Shown here in pieces: positions 45,997 to 61,117 of a stretch of DNA of 64,000 bases. Position numbers and translations under genes: made by a program. The DNA is taken from positions 620,001 to 684,000 of the forward strand of contig CANNBV010000003.1 in the NCBI GenBank assembly GCA_947502975.1, in the 5' to 3' direction. The stretch is from an uncultured Flavobacteriaceae bacterium. GTDB lineage: Bacteria > Bacteroidota > Bacteroidia > Flavobacteriales > Flavobacteriaceae. Within the stretch, counting starts at the first letter, position 1. The number at the start of each line of letters is the position of its first letter. The notes under the pieces were generated by a model that was given only the letters and a program-made list of their open reading frames with translations, was not told the DNA's origin and made no database searches.

Positions 45997-48231
45997 TTAA
46001 AATGAAACCGACACTTTACCTCTTAAAAAGAATGGTGCTCCTGGTGTGAAATGAATTTCTTCAACAGGATTCGTTTCATTAAACAATCTACTTTCTGTAG
46101 CAAACTGTGTTTCATTCCAATCTACATCAAGAAGGTTTTCAACAATTAAACCGAAAGTCCAATTCTTATGATTGTAGTTAAGGTTTAAATCTGTTACAAA
46201 ATACCCTTCTGCTATAATAGAATTGTCTTCATTTGCTGGTCTATCTTTTATATATCTGTAACTAATACCTCCAGAAAAATTCCCTAAATCTTTAAAGCTA
46301 AACCCTCCTGCAGACGTCAGGTCTGGGGCAAGTGGTATATAATCTTGTCCATCTGGTTCTTCAGTACTTCTAGCTATTGTATAATTTACATCTGTATTGA
46401 AATATAACCAATCTGCAATTTGATATCTTAATCCAAAATCTAAACCATAACGTGCTGTCTTTCCGCTAGGCTCAACAATAGCAGCATCTCCTACATATAC
46501 AAATTCTTGTTGTAAAAACAACGACCAAAGTGCTGCATTAATCGCTAATTTATCCGTAGGTTTAAGTACGGTTCCTAAATCTGTACTAAATGCTGTTGGT
46601 AATATTTGCTCTCCACTTTGAGCTGTAACAACACGCGTATCATTTGAATGATACCCCAAACCTGTTTTTAAGAAAAACTGTGTATTAGGCGAGGCAGCAT
46701 AAATGAAATTTAATTTAGGGCTTAATAACGTTTTATTTTCACTTTTACTATCATAAGTTTCAGTAAGTAAGTCTACATAATCAAATGTAAAATAATCTAA
46801 TCGTAGACCTGGATTGATAGTCCAATTCCCAATTTTATAATTTAAATCTGCAAAAGAAAATGCATTAAGCTCGTCTACATTTCCAAATGCTAATCGTTCT
46901 AATAACTCCTTTCTATTTCTTGTTCTGGACAACTGGTTATCATTTACATCATCATATCTAAACCCTACTCCAACTCGATATTTTAATTGTTTATCATGAT
47001 CATCTAAATGAAAAGATTTTTCATAAACACTTTTAGCTCCAATAATAGTACGGTCTTCAAATTGACGAATTTGGTCAGCATTTACGGGGTCATCTAAAAA
47101 GAAAGTGAAATTTGAAAATAACTCAAAGTCATAATTAGACACATATGCAGATGATGTTAAACTAGAGTGCTCATCAAAATGCTTTATATGATTCATCCAG
47201 ATATTAGTTCTACTAGTATTACCTCCTTCTGTATCATCAATTGCCCCAAACCTACCTATTAAACCTTGATCTACTGCACGTTGTGGTATTTGCCCTGAAG
47301 CATCCCATTTACTTTGAAAATGCGAAAGTGAAAGGTTAAATTCTTGGTCTGAATAATTATTATAATTATATCGTGCCATGATATTTAAACGATTAAAATT
47401 TTGAGGAGAATCAAAAACACCATCAGTTAGATTCATCTCACTAGCTACGTAGGCATTACTATTTTCACCATCCCAAATTTTCAACATGGTTAAAGCACGA
47501 ACTGTATTAAACTGCCCCGTTTCAACAGAAATCACATTGTTATCTATAGTTCTTTTAGTTTGAATATCTACATATCCAGCCGTGTTAAAGTTTCCTTTAT
47601 CTGCATAATAAGAACCTTTTCCAAAATCAAGATTTTCAATGGTTTCTGGAATAATAAAGTGCATATCTGCATAGCCTTGACCATGTGCATGAGACACCAT
47701 ATTTACTGGCATACCATCAACATCTATAGCTATATCGGTACCATGGTCTATATCAAAACCTCTTAAGAATATTTGTTCTGCCTTACCTCCACCAGCATGC
47801 TGACCTATAATTAATCCAGGAATTTTTCTTAAAACTTCTTGAGAAGATTTCACTGGACTCGTTTTTAAATCCACATTAACTAAATTGCTCAGCACATTCA
47901 CTTTAGAAACTATAAGTACTTGATCTAAAGAGGCTGATGATATTTCCATGATAACCTGAATAGTGCTATCTAAATGAGATTCATCAATAGTAAGCTCATA
48001 GTTTTCGTAACCTAGTTGATAAAAATAAATAATATCTCCTACTGAAATATCATCTATTTCAAAATATCCAGAAACATTACTGTAGGTATACGTTCCTGTA
48101 CTTTTATTGTATACCCCTACACCTTGTAGTGGTTTTTCATTATCTTCTGATATTACTGTACCCTTAAGTTCATGAGCTAATACTGTCATGTTTAAACTTA
48201 AAAAAAGTAATACTAATATTTTTTTTAACAT
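45997..48231 (-). CDS. TonB-dependent outer-membrane receptor with CarboxypepD-like N-terminal domain
   Basis: This 744-residue receptor has a signal peptide (ending VLAHE). A carboxypeptidase-regulatory-like domain covers about 20-100 (GTVISEDNEKPLQGVGVYN), followed by a plug domain and a 22-strand barrel ending in VSVSF. In the plug, AEQIFLRGFDIDHGTDIAIDVDGMPVNMVSHAHGQGYADMHFIIPE is read across about residues 155-200; the His-rich stretch SHAHGQGYADMHF may contact a metal. It takes up a TonB-driven ligand. The His-rich small gene and the NRPS genes upstream suggest a metallophore or metal. An inverted repeat precedes its start. Confidence 0.88.
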   Translation of the reverse strand: MLKKILVLLFLSLNMTVLAHELKGTVISEDNEKPLQGVGVYNKSTGTYTYSNVSGYFEIDDISVGDIIYFYQLGYENYELTIDESHLDSTIQVIMEISSASLDQVLIVSKVNVLSNLVNVDLKTSPVKSSQEVLRKIPGLIIGQHAGGGKAEQIFLRGFDIDHGTDIAIDVDGMPVNMVSHAHGQGYADMHFIIPETIENLDFGKGSYYADKGNFNTAGYVDIQTKRTIDNNVISVETGQFNTVRALTMLKIWDGENSNAYVASEMNLTDGVFDSPQNFNRLNIMARYNYNNYSDQEFNLSLSHFQSKWDASGQIPQRAVDQGLIGRFGAIDDTEGGNTSRTNIWMNHIKHFDEHSSLTSSAYVSNYDFELFSNFTFFLDDPVNADQIRQFEDRTIIGAKSVYEKSFHLDDHDKQLKYRVGVGFRYDDVNDNQLSRTRNRKELLERLAFGNVDELNAFSFADLNYKIGNWTINPGLRLDYFTFDYVDLLTETYDSKSENKTLLSPKLNFIYAASPNTQFFLKTGLGYHSNDTRVVTAQSGEQILPTAFSTDLGTVLKPTDKLAINAALWSLFLQQEFVYVGDAAIVEPSGKTARYGLDFGLRYQIADWLYFNTDVNYTIARSTEEPDGQDYIPLAPDLTSAGGFSFKDLGNFSGGISYRYIKDRPANEDNSIIAEGYFVTDLNLNYNHKNWTFGLIVENLLDVDWNETQFATESRLFNETNPVEEIHFTPGAPFFLRGKVSVSF

Positions 48232-48300: not shown

Positions 48301-48762
48301 TTAATCAAAATACTGTGGTGGTTGAAAAACCTTAAATATATATCCTTCTAACATACATTCTTGTATAAAAAACCAGACGGACTTTGATTCAAAAGTTAAA
48401 CTATAAAATCTGCTCATCTTCTTTTTTATCCTGATGTGTTTATCTATCTTTTGCTTTATTGTATTTGGGTTCTCGTTATCACTTTCTGTATCAGAAACCT
48501 CAAGAAATTTATTAAGAAATTCCAAAAAACCATGATCATGCTTTGTCTGTGTTAATGCATAATGACCTCCTTCATTATGGCTATCAACTGAATTATCAGA
48601 ATGTGAAATAATAGTATCGGGCATTTCTAACTCATGCGACAAAAAATGAAGCATCTCATTTATTTGATTATGAAAAGGCCCAAGAATGTAGCACATAACC
48701 ATGACTATAGTAGTCATTTTTAAGATAAATAGCTTCAAGCTTTTTTGAGCAATATTATTCAT
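48301..48762 (-). CDS. His-rich small exported/membrane protein beside the TonB receptor
   Basis: The 153-residue protein has one N-terminal hydrophobic segment (LFILKMTTIVMVMCYILGPF), a likely signal anchor. His-rich blocks follow: EMLHFLSHELEMPDTIISHSDNSVDSHNEGGHY across about residues 37-68, and a TKHDHGFLEF stretch. The terminal region is basic (KIDKHIRIKKK) and ends PPQYFD. The layout resembles small metal-related proteins next to TonB receptors, but I do not recognise a named family. It probably acts in the periplasm and may bind a transition metal. It lies 69 bases upstream of the receptor. Confidence 0.55.
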   Translation of the reverse strand: MNNIAQKSLKLFILKMTTIVMVMCYILGPFHNQINEMLHFLSHELEMPDTIISHSDNSVDSHNEGGHYALTQTKHDHGFLEFLNKFLEVSDTESDNENPNTIKQKIDKHIRIKKKMSRFYSLTFESKSVWFFIQECMLEGYIFKVFQPPQYFD

Positions 48763-48949: not shown

Positions 48950-51900
48950 TTATAATAATTCTAAAATCGTTTTCTCTATATAATTTGCATAAGATGCTAT
49001 TGTAGGAAACTCAAATACTTTGTTGAGTGGAATTTCTAATTCTAATTCTTCTTTAATTCTTGACGTAATTCTTATAGCAGCAAGCGAATGTCCTCCAATA
49101 CCAACAAAATCGTCAAAAACACCTATATTATTCTGCTCTAAGACTTCACTCCAAATTTGCTCTACTAATTCTTCAAATTCATTTCTAGGACTTACAAATT
49201 CATTTAAATTTTTTGGGTTTGGTACATCTTCATATTTTGGAAGTTCCTTTCTATTTATTTTTCCGCTCGATAAAAACTCAAATTTTTCTACATAAACAAA
49301 AGCAGAAGGAATCATGTAGAGTGGCAAACTATTTTTTAATAGCTCTAAAACCTCAGTTTCTGGTACATTAGAGCCTGCGTAATATGCTATTAAATTATCT
49401 TTTTCTTCATGTTTTATAACTACAGCTTGTACTATTTCATGATGCTGCTCTAACGTTTTTTCTATCTCACCAAGTTCAATTCTTAAACCTCTAATTTTTA
49501 TTTGATTATCAATTCTTCCATGATACTCAATAACTCCATCATCTGAATATCTAGCTAAATCTCCCGTTTTATACATTAAATCCTCAGGCTTCTCAGAATA
49601 AATATTTTTAATAAATCGCTCTTGCGTTAGAGATGTTCTATTCAAATAACCGTTAGCAACTTGTACTCCTGCTATATATAATTCACCAGTTACACCTATA
49701 GGTTGCATTTGTAAAGCGTCATCTAGAATATATAATTGTGTATTGCTAACTGGTTTACCTATAGGAATGCTATCAGTTGATTCATTTCTTTTACAATGCC
49801 AGCTTGTAACATCTACAGATGCTTCTGTTGGCCCATATAAATTATGAATTTCTACATGATCCAATTTGGCGTATGTATTATCTACAATAGGTATGGATAA
49901 TGCTTCACCACTACAAAAAATACGTTTTAAACTTATACAACCTTCAATACCTTGCGTTTGATTGAAAATATTGAGCATTGATGGTACAAAATGAATATTG
50001 GTAACCTGATGCTTTTTTATTGTCTGTATAAGTTTGTCTGGGTTTTTATGGCCATCTGGGATTTCAATAACTAAGGTAGCTCCAACTTGAAGTGGCCAGA
50101 AAAGCTCCCATAACGAAACATCAAACGTAATAGGTGTTTTTTGTAAAAATATGTCTTGAAGTGTTATTGGGTAATCTGAATTCATCCAGTTTAAACGATT
50201 GCAGATACCTTTATGATGGCACTTAACGCCTTTTGGCTGCCCTGTACTTCCCGATGTATATATTATATAAGCTAAATCTTCGGGAGCAGTATTTATATTA
50301 TTATTGCTAGTGCTTAATAAAGAAATACGATCTTCTATAACATCAACATGAAGGTATTCAACTTCATTAGACCCATTTGCTTCAATAGCATCGTGATTAT
50401 AGAATAAGAATTTAGTTTTCGCATCATTTAGAATAAATTCCAATCGGTTAGTAGGTGTAGATGTATCTATAGGTAAATATGCTGCTCCAGACTTAATAAT
50501 TCCATAGATGTAAATCATCATTTCTATCGACCTATCTATGCTTATAGCCACAATATCATTTGGCTTAACTCCTTTATCAATTAAAAAACGAGCGACTTGG
50601 TTAGACTTTTCATCTAAACTTTTATACGAAATGTACCTTTCCTCAAATATTAATGCTTTTTTGTCTGGTGTATTTAATACTTGCGCTTCAAATTTTGTTA
50701 AAAGAGTTTCCCATTTTGGATATTCTATAGATGTATTATTCCATGAGTTAATTTTTACTATTTCTGCTTCGGTAATAAGATTTACCGTATGTATTGTTTG
50801 TGACTGATTCTCAATACATGCCTCTAATAGTTTTATAAAATGAAGAGAAGCCTCTCTTTGTTTTTCAATATCAAAAACACCAGAATTAAAATCAAGATTC
50901 AATTCAATTTTATTTAAATCACTAGTATTTTCTATACTTACAAGCAATTGATATTTAGAATTTTGGTGTTTAATTTTTTTATTATAGACGTCTGTGTTTT
51001 CTGTATAACTAAACACAGTATCAAATCCTTTTGTATTATTAGTACCCCTATCTGATTGTATCATCTTTGTGCTAGAGTACATTTCTTGACTTATACGTTG
51101 GGTTAATGATAAGAATGTTTCATTTTCTCTTAATTCAATTGTTAATGCACCTAGCTTATCATAATCAGCAACCTCACCTTTTTTAATGTTATTAGGAAAG
51201 TTTTTGAAAGGTGTACCAATAGTTAATCGGGTTTGTCTACTAATCCTATATAAAAAAGCAAAATAAACTGTCTTAAATAGATGGCTTAACGCTACACTAT
51301 TTGACAATTTTAAATCTTTCGCCATATGCAAAGACAAATCTTTTAATTTACTGTAATGAGTTGATGTTATAGAATGACTAATTCTATTGAATTTACCTGT
51401 AATACACTTTGCCGGATTTATACCATAAAGCTTCAGAAAATCGATATTAGGAATTTCTTCCTTCTTTTGATATTTATTTTCTTTTAAACATTTTTTATCT
51501 ATTTTTCCATTTGATGTTAATGGTAATTCATCTAAATGAATAAAAGTATCCGGCACCATATATGATGGCATTTTATTTACCAAATTCTTCCTAAAATCTT
51601 TTGTTGAAATTGGTTTTTCACTTGTATAGTAAGCAATAAGTTGTTGTGTATTATCTGAGACTTCATTGCTAGATGTATCATTTTCTACAATACGCATCAA
51701 AACGGCACAATTATCAACACCCTCAAAGTTTAAAATATTGGATTCTATATCCGTTAATTCTACCCTGTGGCCTTTTATCTTGATTTGTTCATCAATTCTA
51801 CCAAAATATTCATAGTCTCCTTCTCTATTTATCCTAGCTAAATCACCAGTGCGATACATTTTTTCCCCAGAAACAAATGGGTTTTCTATAAACTTTGTAG

Positions 51901-54352
51901 AGGTTAAATCTGACAATTGTAAATAACCATCTGCCAAACTATTACCACTTAAATATAATTCACCAATAACGCCCTTAGGCATAAAATTCTTATACGCATC
52001 AAGTATGTAGGCGTGCATATTCGATATTGGTTTACCTATTGGAATGGAATTCCCCTGATGAGTATCTAACTTAAACTCGCTTACAATACATCCTACTGTA
52101 GCTTCTGTAGGACCATATTCATTATAAATTTTTACATTATTGCCAAATGCCTCAAGAATAGATTTACCCAGTTGAACTTTAAAATCTTCACCTCCTACAA
52201 TAATTTTTCTAATATTTGAATGGCTTAAATCTCTGCCTTGCAAAAACGTTAAATGCGATGGCGTTAACTTGATGGTATTTACAATATTTTCTCCTAACAG
52301 TTGTAATAATCCTAAGTCTGGAGCAAAAGGGTTTTCTTTGTATATCACAATTTTTCCACCAATTACTAAAGGTAAAATTGTGGAAGTAATCGTTAAATCA
52401 AACCCAATAGATGTAAATAAAGGAAATACTGAAGTATGGTCTGTTTTATAATAATCTTTTGCCCATAGTATATAATTACTGAGAGCCCCATGAGAAATTA
52501 AAACACCCTTTGGGTTTCCTGTGGAACCAGAGGTATAGAGAACATAAGCCAAATCATTTTTAAAAAGTTCCAACTTTAAATTTTCAGCAGATTCAATTTG
52601 GCTATCTTGAATTACTTCCTGTAATTCTAAAACTGGAATATTTGTGTTAGATAATTTACGTTTTAAATTAGTTTCTGTGAGAACTAAATCAGATCCAGAA
52701 TTAGAAATAATGTAATTAATTCGCTCTTCTGGTTGATCTGCAGCAATTGGAATAAATGCACACCTTAATTTCATTACTGCTAACAAAGCCAAAATATATT
52801 CTACACTTCTGTAAGTGTATATTGTTACTTTAGAGTTTTCAACAGCACCCTTTTTTCTTAAAAAATGAGCTATTCTATTGGATTTCTTGTTGACTTCAGA
52901 ATATGTTAAAACTACATCTCCAATTTGTAAGGCTACTTCATTTGGGTAATGTATTACAGTATTTTCAAAATTTTCTAGTACAGAATTGCGATATGGATCG
53001 TTTGTGATTTTTGGGTGTAAACAATCTTGAATCTCAGATATATTTGCCAATTTAGGTGCTTCAATAGGCTGATTGATATCCTGAATAAATGCATCAACAA
53101 TATTAGAGAAATGGCTTGGAATGCATTGAGATTGTTTTCTAGTTAAAACGCCATCATTAATATCAAAAATAAGCTGTGTGTTTCCTGTATCATCTAAATC
53201 ACAAACAATACACCGTAGCTGATGTCCTGGATCGTGATGATTTGGGTGAACCCATTCTGTTTTACTATTAAAACCTGCAAAATTCGAAAAACTAGAATTT
53301 ATATAGTTAAAAACAATGTTAAAGCCTCTATTTATTTCAGCTGAAGTAGCGCCAGTAACAGCATGTTTTAAATAAATACTAGTCTCTTTTTTTACATTTT
53401 GTAAGAGCTCGTAGAATGTTTCTCCTTTATTTATTTCCATTGTGATTGGAAACATTTCCATAAATAACCCAGCCGTTTTCTTAAACTTTGAAGTGGTTCT
53501 ATTATGCACTGGTGCCCCTACAATCAATTTTTTTTCTCCACTTACTCTGTTTAGGTATGCAATAAACAAAGTTGAAAAAATAGTGAATAGGGTAAACTCT
53601 TCTGTCCAAATTCTAATATCCTTATTACGAGATATCAGACGTAATTGTTCAGATTGCTTGGAGTCTAGATTTAAAACAACTCTGTGAGAATTAGAAGTAG
53701 TTATATTTTCATGCTTTTCTCCATAAAGCATAGGTTTTTGAGGAAAGTATTTTACTTTATCCTCCCAGTAGATACGATCTTCAGTGTTTAATTTTGCTTG
53801 ATTTGATTCATAAATAACATAATCTGAATACTTTAGTGGTTCTATATCTTTAGAAATTGAATTAGTATCACTCAATTCACTGTAAAACCTAGACATCCTA
53901 TCAAATATAATTACTGAGCTCGCTGCATCTGTAATGATATGATGTAAATTAAGATACCATATATGTTTTTCTTCTTCTACTTTTACTAAAACAGAATCAA
54001 ATAAAGGCTTTGATAAATCAAAGCATAATTCGCTTCTACTTTGTAACCAATCATTGATTGATTGCGAATTAGAATTCAATAAGAAATCCAAATACTCAAC
54101 TTTATAGTTATAAGTATCTAAAACTTTTTGATAAGGAATGTTATCTTTTTCAACAAATATAGTTCTTAAGACATCTGTACCATCTATTAAAACAGTAAAC
54201 GCCTTGCTAAATTTATCTTTATCTACTTTGCCATTAATATGAAACGCATAAGGCACATTATACAAGGGAGTATTAGGACTAAATTTTTGTCCTAGCCATA
54301 TCGAAAATTGACTTTGAGTTAATGATTTTAATGTTGCTTCGATTTGATGCAT
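48950..54352 (-). CDS. Nonribosomal peptide synthetase: C-A(Asn)-truncated C-A(Ser)-PCP
   Basis: The 1800-residue NRPS starts with a condensation domain (1-440; HHIITDA at 137-143, Ala for the usual Gly). Adenylation domain 1 (455-960) has LYTSGSTGNPKG at 605-616 and NGK Lys950. No carrier domain follows. Residues 965-1185 resemble only the C-terminal lobe of a condensation domain and lack HHxxxDG. Adenylation domain 2 (1205-1705) has IYTSGSTGQPKG at 1364-1375 and Lys1698. It is followed by a carrier domain (1720-1795; GGHSL, Ser1756). By manual alignment to GrsA the specificity codes are DLTKIGEVGK (near the Asn code DLTKLGEVGK) and DVWHFSLVDK (near the Ser code DVWHLSLIDK). Confidence 0.92.
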   Translation of the reverse strand: MHQIEATLKSLTQSQFSIWLGQKFSPNTPLYNVPYAFHINGKVDKDKFSKAFTVLIDGTDVLRTIFVEKDNIPYQKVLDTYNYKVEYLDFLLNSNSQSINDWLQSRSELCFDLSKPLFDSVLVKVEEEKHIWYLNLHHIITDAASSVIIFDRMSRFYSELSDTNSISKDIEPLKYSDYVIYESNQAKLNTEDRIYWEDKVKYFPQKPMLYGEKHENITTSNSHRVVLNLDSKQSEQLRLISRNKDIRIWTEEFTLFTIFSTLFIAYLNRVSGEKKLIVGAPVHNRTTSKFKKTAGLFMEMFPITMEINKGETFYELLQNVKKETSIYLKHAVTGATSAEINRGFNIVFNYINSSFSNFAGFNSKTEWVHPNHHDPGHQLRCIVCDLDDTGNTQLIFDINDGVLTRKQSQCIPSHFSNIVDAFIQDINQPIEAPKLANISEIQDCLHPKITNDPYRNSVLENFENTVIHYPNEVALQIGDVVLTYSEVNKKSNRIAHFLRKKGAVENSKVTIYTYRSVEYILALLAVMKLRCAFIPIAADQPEERINYIISNSGSDLVLTETNLKRKLSNTNIPVLELQEVIQDSQIESAENLKLELFKNDLAYVLYTSGSTGNPKGVLISHGALSNYILWAKDYYKTDHTSVFPLFTSIGFDLTITSTILPLVIGGKIVIYKENPFAPDLGLLQLLGENIVNTIKLTPSHLTFLQGRDLSHSNIRKIIVGGEDFKVQLGKSILEAFGNNVKIYNEYGPTEATVGCIVSEFKLDTHQGNSIPIGKPISNMHAYILDAYKNFMPKGVIGELYLSGNSLADGYLQLSDLTSTKFIENPFVSGEKMYRTGDLARINREGDYEYFGRIDEQIKIKGHRVELTDIESNILNFEGVDNCAVLMRIVENDTSSNEVSDNTQQLIAYYTSEKPISTKDFRKNLVNKMPSYMVPDTFIHLDELPLTSNGKIDKKCLKENKYQKKEEIPNIDFLKLYGINPAKCITGKFNRISHSITSTHYSKLKDLSLHMAKDLKLSNSVALSHLFKTVYFAFLYRISRQTRLTIGTPFKNFPNNIKKGEVADYDKLGALTIELRENETFLSLTQRISQEMYSSTKMIQSDRGTNNTKGFDTVFSYTENTDVYNKKIKHQNSKYQLLVSIENTSDLNKIELNLDFNSGVFDIEKQREASLHFIKLLEACIENQSQTIHTVNLITEAEIVKINSWNNTSIEYPKWETLLTKFEAQVLNTPDKKALIFEERYISYKSLDEKSNQVARFLIDKGVKPNDIVAISIDRSIEMMIYIYGIIKSGAAYLPIDTSTPTNRLEFILNDAKTKFLFYNHDAIEANGSNEVEYLHVDVIEDRISLLSTSNNNINTAPEDLAYIIYTSGSTGQPKGVKCHHKGICNRLNWMNSDYPITLQDIFLQKTPITFDVSLWELFWPLQVGATLVIEIPDGHKNPDKLIQTIKKHQVTNIHFVPSMLNIFNQTQGIEGCISLKRIFCSGEALSIPIVDNTYAKLDHVEIHNLYGPTEASVDVTSWHCKRNESTDSIPIGKPVSNTQLYILDDALQMQPIGVTGELYIAGVQVANGYLNRTSLTQERFIKNIYSEKPEDLMYKTGDLARYSDDGVIEYHGRIDNQIKIRGLRIELGEIEKTLEQHHEIVQAVVIKHEEKDNLIAYYAGSNVPETEVLELLKNSLPLYMIPSAFVYVEKFEFLSSGKINRKELPKYEDVPNPKNLNEFVSPRNEFEELVEQIWSEVLEQNNIGVFDDFVGIGGHSLAAIRITSRIKEELELEIPLNKVFEFPTIASYANYIEKTILELL

Positions 54353-54704: not shown

Positions 54705-54873
54705 TCCAAATTATGCTCTTCAACTTAAAATACTATGGTTTTAACGAAATTTTCAGAAAATAGACGATAAATGCTGTGAATTTTTAAGATATTCACAAAA
54801 AATTGTTGAAATATTGAAAGAAGTATTGTCTGCTACTTTCCTATATAACCAACTTACTAAATTCACTTACGAT

Positions 54874-56133
54874 ATGAACAAAAGAATTGTTTATGTATTG
54901 TTGTTATTATTTATTGCAATACCACTAGTAAAAAGTTATGCTCACAATCCAAATAATAGTTTATTATATTTAAAGGTTTATGAGAATAGTAATATTGAAG
55001 GTCATTTTGATGTTAATATCAATGAATTAAATAATGTACTGGGGCTATCTTTTGAAAAAAAGCCAGATATTGAAAAAGTAAGACTTCATCAAGAGCTTAT
55101 TAAGGCATATATAATAAAAAACACAGAATTTAAGGCTGGTGGTAAAGTCTACAATATCATTTTTAACGACGAAATAGAATTCATTCCTACAACTTTTGGT
55201 TCTTTTATTGTATTTCATTTTGAATTAGAAGATTCTGCGAATATACCAGACGAGGTAGATATAACATATAAGGTTTTCATAGACGAAAATCCTAACCATA
55301 GCAATCTAATGGGTATGGAATATAATTGGAGAGCTGGTTTAATTAACAACGAATCCATAATCGCGTTAGATTTTGATAAAGATGGTTACACTAAAACCTT
55401 AGTTTTATCAGATAAAAACAGCTCTATATGGAAAGGTTTTATGGCTATGATAAACCAAGGTATATGGCACATATGGATTGGTATAGATCATATCTTCTTT
55501 TTGGTAGCCTTAATATTACCATCTGTAGTTAGAAGAAGAAAAGAGGAAGATTATGGCAACATAGAACCACGTAAATTCAACATATTTGGCTGGGAACCTG
55601 TTAAAAAATTTAAACCTGCTTTCTTATACATTCTTAAAGTAGTAACGTTCTTTACTATAGCGCACACAATCACATTGAGTTTAGCGTCGCTGAATATTAT
55701 TAATTTGCCTAGCCGTATTGTTGAAACTATAATCGCATTTTCAATTGGTTTAGCTGCATATCACAATATACGTCCTATATTCAAAGGTAAAGATTGGTTA
55801 ATTGCATTTATATTTGGTTTATTTCATGGTTTTGGATTTGCTAGTGTTTTATCCGAGTTAGGTTTTAAAGGAGAATATCTAAGCTTATCATTATTAGGAT
55901 TTAATGTAGGGGTTGAAATCGGGCAAGTTATAATTATCGCAATGATATTCCCTGTACTTTTCTTAATTAGAAAATTAAAACTTTACCCTAAATTACTTGT
56001 GTATCTTTCTGTTATTCTAATAATTATATCCTTATACTGGTCTATTGAACGTGGGTTTGATATTGATATTCCTATAGATGAACAATTAAGACGCTATGGT
56101 TATAAAGTGGCCGTTTGGTTAGGGTTAAAATAA
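54874..56133 (+). CDS. HupE/UreJ-like membrane protein (HupE_UreJ_2 type)
   Basis: Starting at ATG 54874 (the TTG at 54814 would precede the signal with polar residues), the product is 419 residues. It begins with a signal peptide (VYVLLLLFIAIPLVKSYAH). A roughly 190-residue extracytoplasmic domain follows. Six or so helices come next, with QGIWHIWIGIDHIFFLVALILP, FFTIAHTITLSLASL, PSRIVETIIAFSIGLAAYHN, FGLFHGFGFASVLSELGFKG and FNVGVEIGQVIII. The His-rich helices are typical of metal permease-like HupE/UreJ proteins. It starts the operon with NRPS2, NRPS3 and the transferase, 17 bases before NRPS2, suggesting metal transport linked to the peptide. Confidence 0.85.
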   Translation: MNKRIVYVLLLLFIAIPLVKSYAHNPNNSLLYLKVYENSNIEGHFDVNINELNNVLGLSFEKKPDIEKVRLHQELIKAYIIKNTEFKAGGKVYNIIFNDEIEFIPTTFGSFIVFHFELEDSANIPDEVDITYKVFIDENPNHSNLMGMEYNWRAGLINNESIIALDFDKDGYTKTLVLSDKNSSIWKGFMAMINQGIWHIWIGIDHIFFLVALILPSVVRRRKEEDYGNIEPRKFNIFGWEPVKKFKPAFLYILKVVTFFTIAHTITLSLASLNIINLPSRIVETIIAFSIGLAAYHNIRPIFKGKDWLIAFIFGLFHGFGFASVLSELGFKGEYLSLSLLGFNVGVEIGQVIIIAMIFPVLFLIRKLKLYPKLLVYLSVILIIISLYWSIERGFDIDIPIDEQLRRYGYKVAVWLGLK

Positions 56134-56150: not shown

Positions 56151-59027
56151 ATGGAAAAGGATTCTCTACTCAGTCAATGGAAAGCCAAAAAAAAGACTGG
56201 AATTTCAATACATCAAATTGAAAAAGCTCCAGAAGGTGAACCCATTCCACTATCGAATGGTCAGCAACGCTTATGGTTTTTACAACAACTATATCCAGAT
56301 AATACATTCTACAACCACTCAGAGTTCTACAATTTCGAAGGGGAATTACAAATATTAGCCTTAAAGAATAGCTTAAACATTATTTTTAATCAAAATGAAA
56401 TTTTAAAATCTTACTACCCTCTCGAAGATGGTAAACCAGTAATAAAATTAGTTGAAGAAGATCATCTAGATATTATAGAGTATAACTTTAGCAATTTAAG
56501 TTTTGAAAAAGCGCTTGATGCTAAAAAAGAAGTCTGTGATAAACAGGCACAAATACGGTTTAATCTTGCTAATGCACCACTTATTAAAGCGAGTCTAATA
56601 AAAGTTAGACCTAAAGAACACACCCTGTTTTTAACATTTCATCATATCATTACAGATATATGGACACTTGGTTTATTGAGAACACAACTGGCATCACATT
56701 ATCAAAATTTAATTTCTGGAAATAAGGTTGAAGTATTTGATCAAGATATAAATTATTTAGATTATGCATATTGGCAAACTAATACTGTTAATTATGATGA
56801 ACAGTTAAAATATTGGAAGAAAAAATTATCTGGAGAAGTTGGTGTATTAAATTTACCAACAGACTTTCAAAGACCTTCAGTCCCTACATATAAAGGGAAA
56901 CAGCATATCACTACATTTTCAAAAGAGTTGTCATCAAACGTTTTAAAATTTACAAAAAACAATGGTGTTACTCCTTATGTATTCCTTTTGTCTGTTTACA
57001 ACCTATTATTATTTAAATATACTAGACAAAATGATATATTGATAGGATCTCCAGTGTCTAATAGAAGTCAAAAGAAACTCGAAAATATTTTTGGTTTTTT
57101 TATTGATACAGTTGTGCTACGCAATAGTGTCAATAATTCTGATACTTTCATAAAATTTTTAGACAGTGTTAAAGAACAAACTATAAATGCTTTCGCCAAT
57201 AAAGATATGCCTTTTGACTTACTAGTTAAAGCGCTAAATATTGAAAGATCTTTATCTATAAATCCTTTTTTTCAGGTGATGTTTGTTTTCGACAAAGTAG
57301 AAGAACTACCTAAATTTGGATCGGAACTTGAACTTGTAAAAAATGCAGAATATGGTACTGGTGTCGCCAAATTTGATTTAACTCTTTTTATTTCTGAAGA
57401 AGAAGGAATTTTAACTTCTAAATTCGAATATTCTACCGATCTTTTTGAAGAAGAAACGATAGTGCAATTCCAAGAACATTTAAAGCTCTTAGCAAGAGAA
57501 ATTATTTTAAATCCAGAAATAAAAATTCAGGAACTATCAATACTAACTGAAAAAGAAAAAACTTTTTTTAATAATTCAAATCTCAACGTTGGTAAGAAAA
57601 AGCTAGAGACATCTCAGGGTATTCATGAGATTATTGAAAATATAGCTACTACTTATCCCCAAAAAATCGCCTTAAGTTTTAATACTTTAAGTATGACTTA
57701 TGGAGATTTAAATGTAAGAGCAAATTATTTAGCAAGCTTGATTTTAGAAAAAACCAATGGTAATAAAGAATTTATTGGTTTATCAATCGAAAGGTCTATG
57801 GATATGATTATTGGTATGTTAGCCATTCTAAAATCTGGTTGTGCCTATTTACCCATAGACCCAGAGTATCCAAAAGAAAGAATAGATTACATTATAGATG
57901 ATGCAAAAATAAATTTAATCTTAACACAGTCATCTTACTCATCTTTGTTTGATAATCGTATCACACAATTGCATATCAATACAGTAAAACACTCTGATAC
58001 TACTAATAAAATTAACCTTCCAAAGGTGAAAAATTCTGATATAGCATATATCATTTACACCTCTGGGAGTACTGGTAACCCAAAGGGTGTGCCTATTACT
58101 CACAAAAACATCATTAATTCGACCATTGGTCGTCAAGAATATTACCAAAATAACCCTGAGGCATTTCTATTAATGTCTTCTATTTCCTTTGATAGCTCAA
58201 AAGCCGGTATTTTTTGGACGCTCTGTTCAGGTGGAAACCTCGTTATTACTGAAAAACGTATTGAACAAGATATTAGCAAAATAGAAAACCTTATAAAAAC
58301 CCATAACATCAGTCATACTTTGATGTTACCATCATTATATAAGTTAATAATCGAACATACAGAACCGAATAACTTACAAAGCCTTAATGCAGCAATAGTA
58401 GCAGGAGAAGCATGTGGCAAAGATTTATGTGAGTTACATTTTAAAACTCTACCTCACACCTTATTGTACAACGAATATGGCCCTACAGAGGGTACTGTTT
58501 GGTGTACGGCACACAAAATAAGTCCTAAGGATTTTAAATACGATACAATTCCTATCGGGAAACCCGTTGCAAATGCTGAAATATATATTCTAGATGAAAA
58601 TCACAAATTAGTACCATTTGGTGCTATTGGGGAAATATATATTGGAGGTATTGGCCTCTCTGGAATTTATTTAAACAAACCCGATTTAACTAATTTAGCT
58701 TACGTTAAACACCCTTTTACCAAAGATAAAACTCAGAGATTATATAAGACAGGAGATTTAGGAAGGTTTAGAAATGATGGAGCTATTGAGTTTTTAGGCA
58801 GGGTTGACTATCAGGTAAAGATTAGAGGTTATAGGATTGAACTTGATGAAATTAAGACGGCTATTATTGAAAGTAAATTTGTAGAAGATGCAGTTGTGGT
58901 AACTGAAAACAGTAAAAACCCTAACCAGATACCTCAGAAATTTGAAGATGCAGAAGAATTAGTTGAGATTTTAGAAAAAAATCTTTCAAAAGAACAAATA
59001 AACCAACTTTTAAATTTGGTAGAATAA
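56151..59027 (+). CDS. NRPS: condensation domain plus adenylation core ending after A8 (split A domain, N-terminal part)
   Basis: The 958-residue protein has a short lead-in, a condensation domain (30-470; HHIITDI at 164-170) and adenylation motifs. These are IYTSGSTGNPKG (635-646), NEYGPTEGTVW (774-784), YKTGDLGR (865-872) and A8 GRVDYQVKIRGYRIELDEI (883-901). It stops at 958 after a charged helical tail (EDAEELVEILEKNLSKEQIN), before motifs A9 and A10. Those motifs occur near the start of the next protein. By manual alignment the specificity code is DSALIAEVWK including the Lys from the next protein, which I cannot assign. The stop overlaps the next ATG as TAATG. Confidence 0.93.
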   Translation: MEKDSLLSQWKAKKKTGISIHQIEKAPEGEPIPLSNGQQRLWFLQQLYPDNTFYNHSEFYNFEGELQILALKNSLNIIFNQNEILKSYYPLEDGKPVIKLVEEDHLDIIEYNFSNLSFEKALDAKKEVCDKQAQIRFNLANAPLIKASLIKVRPKEHTLFLTFHHIITDIWTLGLLRTQLASHYQNLISGNKVEVFDQDINYLDYAYWQTNTVNYDEQLKYWKKKLSGEVGVLNLPTDFQRPSVPTYKGKQHITTFSKELSSNVLKFTKNNGVTPYVFLLSVYNLLLFKYTRQNDILIGSPVSNRSQKKLENIFGFFIDTVVLRNSVNNSDTFIKFLDSVKEQTINAFANKDMPFDLLVKALNIERSLSINPFFQVMFVFDKVEELPKFGSELELVKNAEYGTGVAKFDLTLFISEEEGILTSKFEYSTDLFEEETIVQFQEHLKLLAREIILNPEIKIQELSILTEKEKTFFNNSNLNVGKKKLETSQGIHEIIENIATTYPQKIALSFNTLSMTYGDLNVRANYLASLILEKTNGNKEFIGLSIERSMDMIIGMLAILKSGCAYLPIDPEYPKERIDYIIDDAKINLILTQSSYSSLFDNRITQLHINTVKHSDTTNKINLPKVKNSDIAYIIYTSGSTGNPKGVPITHKNIINSTIGRQEYYQNNPEAFLLMSSISFDSSKAGIFWTLCSGGNLVITEKRIEQDISKIENLIKTHNISHTLMLPSLYKLIIEHTEPNNLQSLNAAIVAGEACGKDLCELHFKTLPHTLLYNEYGPTEGTVWCTAHKISPKDFKYDTIPIGKPVANAEIYILDENHKLVPFGAIGEIYIGGIGLSGIYLNKPDLTNLAYVKHPFTKDKTQRLYKTGDLGRFRNDGAIEFLGRVDYQVKIRGYRIELDEIKTAIIESKFVEDAVVVTENSKNPNQIPQKFEDAEELVEILEKNLSKEQINQLLNLVE

Positions 59028-60394
59028 TGGTTAGTCTTAAAGAAAAAATAAAAGCACTCTCTCCCAACGAGCAGGAATTATTGTTTTTAAGAATGAAACA
59101 GATGTTGGCAAAACAAGAGACATCAAAAACCAAAGACATTCAACGCGTAGTAGCTTACCTTAAGGTTAACGACCTATATAACAGAAATAAACTAAATAGT
59201 TTTCTAAAAGCTAAGATTCCAGATTATATGATACCATCTGCAATGGTAGAATTAGATAGCTTTCCGTTATTACCTAATGGCAAGGTTGATTTAAATAAAC
59301 TCCGTAAGGCTAAGCGTACAGAATCGAAATCTGCATCCCAAAAAGTTTTTAAATCACCATCAAATGAAATAGAAACTAAACTCGTAGAAATTTGGCAAAA
59401 TGTTTTAGGTATAGACGCCATAAGTGTTCAAGACAACTTCTTCGACATTGGTGGTGATTCAATTTTGAGTATACAAATTATTGCAAATGCTAGAAAGTTA
59501 GGAGTTAACCTTACTCCAAATCAGCTTTTTGAAAATCAGACTATAGAAGAACTTTCAAGGCTCATATCCGATAAAGATGCAACTAAACCAAACTCAAAAG
59601 CGTTATCAGAAGAATTCAAACATGTGGTTTCTGTAAAATCTGAAGGCTCTAAACCTCCCCTATTTTGTATTCATGGTGGAGGAGCTCATTTCTTTTTTTA
59701 CAACTTGTTAGGTAGTGTTATCAACAAAGATCGCCCTGTTTACGCTGTCCAAGCCTCTGGACTTGATGGTGAACTAATTCTTCATAAAAGTGTTCAAGAC
59801 ACCGCAATAGATTTCTTAAACGAAATAAAACAAGTACAAAAAGAAGGCCCATACCACATCATGGCCTATTGTTTTAGTACAGCAGTTGGCCTCGAAATTT
59901 CTCAAATCTTAAAAAGAGATGGTGAAAAAGTAAATCTAATAATTGTAGACACTGTTGCAAAAAATCAAGATAGATTTGCTGCAGATAGAACACAACATCG
60001 GGCTAAGGAATTTTTTCAACGTTTATCCAAAAATCCATTTAGAGCTTTATATATATTAGTAAAATCTAGAATTAATCGTTTTATCAAACCCGTAATACAA
60101 ACACTTGTAGGTAGTGAAAACCAGAGAAAAATTGCTATTCTACGAAATCATCAGGTGAAAACGTATTTAGACTATAAATGGAATACTTACAACAATACTA
60201 TAAACGTTTTAATTACCGAGAAAGATGATTCGACCTTAAATAGAGATATTAAAAACACTTGGAATGAAATTTCAGCAGATAAAGTAATTTTAACTTATAC
60301 TGAAGGTCACCATGATACATTATTTAAAGAACCTATAGTAAAACATACTGCTAAGACTTTAGAAAATTGTATGTTAAGTTTTGAAAATCAATAG
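59027..60394 (+). CDS. NRPS: adenylation C-terminal subdomain (A9/A10), PCP and thioesterase
   Basis: The 455-residue protein begins with a helical segment LKEKIKALSPNEQELLFLRMK. Residues 40-95 form the missing adenylation C-terminal subdomain: VVAYLKVND, motif A9 IPDYMIPSAMVELDSFPLL and A10 PNGKVDLNKLR with the catalytic Lys86. Carrier domain: 110-180, DNFFDIGGDSIL, Ser145. Thioesterase: about 205-455, FCIHGGGAHFFFYNLLG. At the nucleophile elbow AYCFS (280-284) Cys282 replaces the usual Ser. Asp308 (IIVDTV) and a His in EGHHDTLF complete the triad. It is expected to release or cyclise the peptide. Confidence 0.92.
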   Translation: MVSLKEKIKALSPNEQELLFLRMKQMLAKQETSKTKDIQRVVAYLKVNDLYNRNKLNSFLKAKIPDYMIPSAMVELDSFPLLPNGKVDLNKLRKAKRTESKSASQKVFKSPSNEIETKLVEIWQNVLGIDAISVQDNFFDIGGDSILSIQIIANARKLGVNLTPNQLFENQTIEELSRLISDKDATKPNSKALSEEFKHVVSVKSEGSKPPLFCIHGGGAHFFFYNLLGSVINKDRPVYAVQASGLDGELILHKSVQDTAIDFLNEIKQVQKEGPYHIMAYCFSTAVGLEISQILKRDGEKVNLIIVDTVAKNQDRFAADRTQHRAKEFFQRLSKNPFRALYILVKSRINRFIKPVIQTLVGSENQRKIAILRNHQVKTYLDYKWNTYNNTINVLITEKDDSTLNRDIKNTWNEISADKVILTYTEGHHDTLFKEPIVKHTAKTLENCMLSFENQ

Positions 60395-60397
60395 TGT

Positions 60398-61117
60398 TTG
60401 CTTGCTAATACAAAAAACGAATTAAGCGTTTTGGACAAGAATAAGGTAGAGGTCTATCATACTAACTTTTCAGATCATTTTAAAAACATAAATACGTTTT
60501 TAAACATTTTATCAGTAGATGAAATCGAAAAATCCAATAAATATCGGTTTCAAATCGACAGAAAAAAATCAATTGTTTCCAGAGGTATTTTAAGGAATTT
60601 ACTGGGAAAACTGCTAAAGGAAAATGCTAAGCATATAAAGTTTAATTACGGCCCTTATGGCAAACCAGACTATTCGCATAAGGCAAACATAAAATTTAAT
60701 GTATCACATTCTAATGATATGTTAGTTATAGCATTTGCTAAAGACTTTGAAATAGGAGTAGATATAGAAAATATTAAATCCAATTTTGATGTTATGGATA
60801 TTGCATCAAATTTTTTTTCAAAAATCGAAATCAATGCTTTAGAAGAAATACCGCCTTTAAAACAAGTTGATGCCTTTTACAGGTGCTGGACGAGAAAAGA
60901 ATCTTTTATAAAAGCAAAAGCTCAGGGTCTTTCTTTTCCGTTAGATGCTTTCTCTGTTTCAATTGATGATGCAACCAAAGTAAAATTATTAGAAACGCAA
61001 TGGGATATACACGAAAGAGACCAATGGAGTTTATTCTCTTTTAGACCTCAATACAAGTACGTGGGAGCTATTTCTATTCATGGTAAAATAAATGCATTTA
61101 ATTTGATAAAATATTGA
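60398..61117 (+). CDS. 4'-phosphopantetheinyl transferase (Sfp type)
   Basis: The 239-residue enzyme activates carrier proteins by adding phosphopantetheine from CoA. Motifs are GPYGKPDYSHKANIKFNVSHS (about 90-110, P1/P2), FEIGVDIENIK (the Mg2+ Asp and Glu) and FYRCWTRKESFIKAKAQGLSFPL (W/KE-x-x-x-K). It is the last gene of the HupE-NRPS2-NRPS3 operon, with a 3-base gap. The start is TTG at 60398; another in-frame TTG lies at 60431, so the exact N-terminus is uncertain. It should modify both the NRPS carrier domains and the free carrier protein. Confidence 0.9.
   Translation: MLANTKNELSVLDKNKVEVYHTNFSDHFKNINTFLNILSVDEIEKSNKYRFQIDRKKSIVSRGILRNLLGKLLKENAKHIKFNYGPYGKPDYSHKANIKFNVSHSNDMLVIAFAKDFEIGVDIENIKSNFDVMDIASNFFSKIEINALEEIPPLKQVDAFYRCWTRKESFIKAKAQGLSFPLDAFSVSIDDATKVKLLETQWDIHERDQWSLFSFRPQYKYVGAISIHGKINAFNLIKY

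Follow-up and report, generated by a model that had tools for sequence, protein, structure and literature searches.

Two adjacent genes of a flavobacterial nonribosomal peptide synthetase cluster probably share one adenylation domain, split after motif A8

The window analysed here is a stretch of 64,000 nucleotides from an uncultured Flavobacteriaceae bacterium (assembly GCA_947502975.1, contig CANNBV010000003.1, positions 620,001 to 684,000). It contains a gene cluster for nonribosomal peptide synthetases (NRPSs) in which an adenylation (A) domain is split between two consecutive genes. The split is real, and the products of the two genes, P1 and P2, are probably two chains of one adenylation enzyme, with the break likely at the former site of a methyltransferase gene, as far as comparison of sequences can tell.

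Both genes and all of their features lie on the forward strand. P1 (56151-59027, 958 aa) was delimited from the list of open reading frames (ORFs), Pfam and a motif scan as a condensation (C) domain followed by an A domain that extends through motif A8, the motifs being designated by their customary names (A3, A5, A7, A8, A10 and so on). Pfam assigned Condensation and AMP-binding domains to P1, and the motif scan located HHIITD at residue 164, A3 at 636, A5 at 774, A7 at 865 and A8 (KIRGYRIE) at residues 890-897 (58818-58841). From the first A8 residue to the C-terminus 69 residues are left, the last of which form a tail (58941-59024) with two helices in a low-confidence model. P2 (59027-60394, 455 aa) consists of a head (59027-59119; modelled with low confidence as helices at residues 2-9 and 13-31), the remaining part of the A subdomain with A9 and A10, a carrier protein domain and a thioesterase. 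Motif A10 (NGKVD, residues 84-88) was found at 59276-59290 with the codon of the catalytic Lys86 at 59282-59284, the carrier domain (PF00550) at 59378-59566 with its motif GGDS at residue 142, and the thioesterase region at 59612-60391. Pfam matched the Thioesterase family (PF00975) at P2 residues 211-333 only, and the extent was set as residues 196-455, about the length over which relatives match. The two genes share one base at TAATG, as confirmed by an ORF check. Thus, the order proposed in the initial annotation, with a split after A8 and a second protein made of a helical segment followed by A9, A10 and Lys86, was recovered.

Motif A8 and the following strand (DAVVVTEN) are encoded in P1, and the next strand (RVVAYLKV) together with A9 and A10 in P2. 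On the basis of the known A-domain fold, the break presumably lies inside the C-terminal A subdomain and not at the hinge. Since P1 holds the strand after A8 and P2 opens with the next one, the two chains would have to complete one small fold jointly. The residues at the specificity-code positions matched no code known to us, and the code was not used for prediction. In the mechanism that we propose, the C domain, the A core and the beginning of the A subdomain would come from P1, and the rest of the subdomain with Lys86, the carrier and the thioesterase from P2. The two chains would assemble, probably aided by the P1 tail and the P2 head, and the assembled pair would adenylate one amino acid and load the carrier of P2, followed by condensation in the C domain of P1 and product release. 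With regard to descent, the break would most likely mark where a free-standing methyltransferase gene, still present in relatives, was lost from the genome of the window, and a rejoining of the halves seems to have occurred in several lineages.

For the survey of related clusters, the first 208 residues of P2 were compared with 99 relatives and matched in 22 genomes (E up to 0.001); when 397 genomes of the family were searched with a profile, 65 had a match (E up to 1e-20). Many of these matches are ordinary NRPS modules. Regions were fetched around the better matches (12, then 27), and the proportions below are therefore not an unbiased frequency. In the resulting set of 40 loci, window included, the A domain was split around an intervening methyltransferase gene in 14 (a stub in L072, a fragmented locus in L079), split without a methyltransferase in 8, among them the window, unbroken without an insert in 16 and unbroken with an insert in one (L032); in L092 the A domain was unbroken and the C domain separate. 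The matched place was additionally inspected in each of 80 further loci, in a few of which the frame leaves the contig, and four were split there (L093-L096); L146 had been flagged as split, yet its A8 lies in the same frame. L093, L094, L097 and L100 were taken as genomes already counted. Split loci with a methyltransferase were added from an Algibacter metagenome-assembled genome (MAG; L095), Flavisolibacter longurius (L096), a Verrucomicrobia MAG (L119) and a genome outside the family of the window in the same phylum (L178), and six unbroken loci with a HupE neighbour were added as well (L099, L105, L108, L128, L145 and G633). The split of L119 was located in its second module, and the second modules of other loci were only partly examined. 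In total, 26 of 50 clusters are split at A8/A9 (18 with a methyltransferase gene or stub in the gap and 8 without) and 24 are unbroken, so that the genome search suggested in the initial annotation did find the same gene break elsewhere. Within the family the split loci span 14 genus codes and include contigs of Aurantibacter crassamenti and Pseudozobellia. The TAATG overlap, from which coupled synthesis had been proposed, is present in the window; it is not a general feature, with nominal gaps of 4 to 90 nt in the seven remaining splits that lack a methyltransferase. The unbroken homologues L028-L031, L033-L035 and L083-L091 share the gene neighbourhood of the cluster, and their A cores are 54-61% identical to that of the window, but each is a single chain in which A9 follows A8 without an extra helical segment, whereas the window has two chains.

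Where intact, the gene in the gap encodes 261-263 aa. A profile of it (10 rows) matched the structure of guanidinoacetate N-methyltransferase (GAMT) 3orh with an E value of 7.7e-26 over profile positions 76-212, and by this similarity to a solved GAMT the gap gene is classed as GAMT-like. On the level of whole genomes the GAMT-like gene was detected in 14 of 40, which are exactly the 14 with a split plus methyltransferase locus, and the profile gave no match in the other 26, the genome of the window included; other methyltransferase families were not searched genome-wide. A relocation of this methyltransferase to another place in the genome of the window was rejected, as the profile search gave no match. 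Among 395 genomes of the phylum the profile matched two (E up to 1e-15), G648 and G633; in G648 the gene again lies between split halves. At the level of genomes the methyltransferase match in G295 covers residues 1-55 only, and at the level of loci L072 carries between its halves a methyltransferase gene stub of 87 aa (L072:5638-5901), a possible step toward loss of the methyltransferase.

The facing ends of the two chains were compared across the aligned loci. In all 17 aligned split rows with a methyltransferase, P1 ends in two helical-looking segments, the last of which reads approximately LSxEEKxYLLxQL. Among the 8 split rows without a methyltransferase this last segment was kept in two (L073 and L080), altered in L077 and mostly or wholly gone in the window, L024, L070, L071 and L082. 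This distribution fits a last segment that served the methyltransferase and a remainder that serves the two halves. The P2 head follows a common general pattern in 24 rows and in L178 (the head of L119, for which another ORF was picked, was left out), and it is conserved among split relatives as well as within the insert of L032, whose single unbroken chain contains both tail and head segments. Models made with AlphaFold2 from five-row alignments, used for secondary structure only, contained helices at the P1 tail and the P2 head. The P1 tails carry a mean net charge of -7.5 and are acidic in 23 of 24 rows; the P2 heads are close to neutral (mean +1.2). A known NRPS docking family was also considered for the tail and head and rejected, two tails and three heads having given only unrelated sub-cut-off matches to the Pfam docking families.

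Decay of the module, in which the split would be a stage of loss and the A domain non-functional, is an unlikely explanation. The absence of such a methyltransferase from the genome of the window and the stub in G295 agree with it, but the motifs are intact and the same state recurs across many genera. Moreover, the A10 lysine is present in 40 of 40 rows (L079, L092 and L119 having been dropped beforehand), and the distances of P1 co-vary with those of the subdomain plus carrier whether the rows are split (r 0.47, n=23) or fused (r 0.58, n=17), and none of 2000 shuffles reached these values. Judged from these distances, the halves of split pairs have stayed in step with each other. In the close split pair L070/L071, the ratio of nonsynonymous to synonymous substitution rates (dN/dS) is below 1 for both halves and for both facing ends, with 0.056/0.288 for P1, 0.048/0.266 for P2, 0.035/0.240 for the head (37 codons) and 0.096/0.210 for the tail (46 codons). 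Given that the halves co-vary and keep their motifs, reassembly in trans is the likeliest outcome. The same data bear on independent halves, with P2 loaded by another A domain and P1 working alone or not at all, for which we see very little probability: P2 by itself does have a carrier and a thioesterase, yet in the split loci examined for this it starts, after its head, with the very part that is absent from the A domain of P1, the halves co-vary, and in the corallorazine system the first half alone was inactive according to PMC11342130.

A ribosomal -1 frameshift near the P1 stop, yielding a fused chain, was judged to be a weak candidate and is equally improbable. Relative to P1, P2 lies in the -1 frame, which is open from 58967, slippery-type heptamers occur in the overlap at 58976 and 59009 (2 against 0.2 to 0.3 expected from the rates in the ORFs of the window and in P1), and L032 is a fused relative with both segments. 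A stable structure was, however, not found downstream (z +0.93), none of the seven other split pairs without a methyltransferase has a heptamer in the overlap (which exceeds 4 nt in only two of the seven), and in three of the seven P2 lies in P1's own frame behind a stop. A sequencing or assembly error is ruled out by the relatives for practical purposes: unbroken homologues do exist in 24 of 50 clusters, but the P1 frame is closed by stops past its end and the P2 frame is open upstream only to 58967, so that a one-base error could fuse the genes only within about 60 nt, and the same break occurs in 25 other loci, one of them (L071, G276) in a single-contig genome of 4.76 Mb, with a whole or near-whole extra gene in the gap of 17 of the 26 split clusters.

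For the history of the split enzyme, a main P1 tree of 50 rows was rooted on two distant synthetases, the outgroup branches of which are long (program warning). L079 was left out of all trees, L092 out of all but the earliest P1 tree, L103 and L112 out of the P1 tree used for the approximately unbiased (AU) test, and L079, L092 and L119 out of the shorter subdomain plus carrier tree. The two deepest rows on the rooted P1 tree are L119 and L178, both split with a methyltransferase. Fitch parsimony required 11 changes on this tree; on the AU-tested P1 tree the best tree has 12 changes and strongly supported branches force 6, and on the subdomain plus carrier tree 8 changes are needed and 4 forced. 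For the AU tests, the groups were set by gene structure after an earlier tree had been inspected. A single branch separating every split row from the unbroken ones was rejected on the P1 tree (24 split versus 21 unbroken, p-AU 6.6e-35), as was, on the subdomain plus carrier tree, a branch with every fused row on the same side (17 versus 23, p-AU 0.0006). An old split is favoured because most carriers have the same gap gene and matching tails, which are hard to reinvent. If the split is old, the 13 unbroken groups of the rooted P1 tree are separate rejoinings, or fewer if weak branches are wrong. L032 falls among split rows on the P1 trees (support 99/96 on the rooted and 100/96 on the earlier tree) and is therefore most readily explained by a rejoining in which both segments were retained. 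The initial annotation had held that fused homologues with a conserved linker would speak against a split; L032 alone is of this kind, and, to judge by the split homologues, the split and the fused state both occur naturally. As one conceivable history, offered tentatively, an old enzyme of three genes (core, free GAMT-like methyltransferase and subdomain), docked by helices on either face of the A8/A9 site, would have worked in the manner of an interrupted A domain made of three chains; the break would be natural and reversible, and the split would have persisted after loss of the methyltransferase, as in the window, followed by repeated and mostly scarless rejoining, with L032 keeping both helices. 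The P1 of the window is sister to six unbroken rows on the rooted P1 tree (96/80), a position not recovered in two other P1 trees, and its P2 groups weakly with the split L024 on the subdomain plus carrier tree (94/77). This difference between the nearest relatives of P1 and P2, of modest support, could mean that one half was exchanged at the gene border.

Several results weigh against a split enzyme of this origin. In G633 the methyltransferase gene lies beside the second NRPS and the A domain is one unbroken chain without an insert, from which it follows that the methyltransferase does not need the split; a rule that the methyltransferase always means a split was thus ruled out. L178 has a methyltransferase, yet its P1 is without the last tail segment. 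Of the docking by facing charged helices that was first proposed, the helical appearance and the acidic tails are borne out and complementary charge only in part, an acidic tail being combined with a basic head in only 13 of 24 pairs. The AlphaFold2 models are of low confidence (mean predicted local distance difference test scores of 54 and 61). Parsimony on the rooted P1 tree allows a split or a fused root state equally, L032 falls in an unresolved group of split and fused rows on the subdomain plus carrier tree, and co-variation of the two halves is expected from shared descent alone too.

A precedent, the one described natural case to which the searched open literature led, is available in corallorazine biosynthesis. 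In PMC11342130 (2024), the A2 domain is described as split on two ORFs, Crz1 ending after A8 plus an N-methyltransferase and the next ORF, Crz2, opening with A9/A10 before the carrier; the first half alone gave no turnover and a 1:1 mix near-complete turnover. The same paper calls this the first experimental report to the knowledge of its authors and groups 146 further clusters with crz, only some of which contain both genes. Consequently, the expectation that such a split had not been described before did not hold, and the split in the window is a variant of a type that was first demonstrated by experiment in 2024. As in corallorazine, the first chain stops after A8 and A9/A10 start the next ORF. 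Crz1 differs in bearing a methyltransferase after A8, where P1 of the window has none by Pfam and only its short C-terminal remainder, and Crz2 ends in a reductase and P2 in a thioesterase. The methyltransferase is on the Crz1 chain in corallorazine, whereas relatives of the window have a free-standing GAMT-like gene; the kinship of the two was not compared. Methyltransferases inserted between A8 and A9 of single chains are described, for example, for RXP synthetases in PMC9872161, in agreement with the earlier remark that the break lies where methyltransferases interrupt other A domains. Those interrupted A domains share the site and have an auxiliary domain embedded in one chain, whereas in the window the chain is cut into two ORFs with no auxiliary domain and in relatives the methyltransferase is a gene of its own. 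The parts available of PMC10127204 and PMC8949500 mention split modules and contain no A domain over two genes. The open literature that was searched, with subscription papers mostly outside it, yielded no report of two chains lacking any methyltransferase, of halves with a free-standing methyltransferase gene in between, or of an A domain joined and broken repeatedly.

The value of the finding is in the natural series of states around the split, as one gene cluster offers whole, two-piece and three-gene A domains. For engineers who cut and rejoin such enzymes, it could indicate the places at which a chain tolerates a break and its repair, and perhaps which short helices are enough to keep the halves in contact. 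In addition, it makes the corallorazine split look less like an isolated case.

Two observations concern the remaining domains of P2. The thioesterase motif in the window and in relatives is YCFSxxVG, which suggests a cysteine in place of serine as the putative nucleophile, a role that we assume for this residue. A pattern permitting Cys or Ser matched in 24 of 48 loci and all were Cys (23 with YC[FW]S, and CFGN in L099), the pattern being narrow. Tandem carrier domains were observed in the P2 of two loci (L025:16234-18456 and L026:13273-14859).

The gene following P2 encodes a 4'-phosphopantetheinyl transferase (60398-61117, forward strand) and is present in most related loci. The second NRPS of the cluster (48950-54352) is encoded on the opposite, reverse strand and is unlike that of the relatives: a C-A unit without carrier and a shorter second C-like match are followed by an A domain with carrier, and there is no PP-loop insert. 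In relatives, the second NRPS (for example L026:3597-7739, reverse strand) has an insert of about 340 aa between A8 and the A9 part, which matches the N-acetyl sugar amidotransferase WbuX (TIGR03573, 9e-40, below the curated cut-off) and contains an SGGKDS PP-loop. WbuX-like inserts were also found in L024, L027, L031-L035, L096, L119 and L177. Of the 13 loci showing the second NRPS fully or largely, 8 have the insert, and the window, L025, L028, L029 and L030 do not. No paper describing such an insert in an NRPS was found in the open literature searched, and it may be more novel than the split. With regard to a possible product, the titles and abstracts among the matches listed contained nothing on this cluster. 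A gene for a TonB-type receptor (45997-48231), one for a small protein (48301-48762) and the gene of a HupE/UreJ_2-like membrane protein (54814-56133, forward strand), which precedes the split module in relatives too, are found with the cluster both in the window and in relatives, a hint that the product may bind metal.

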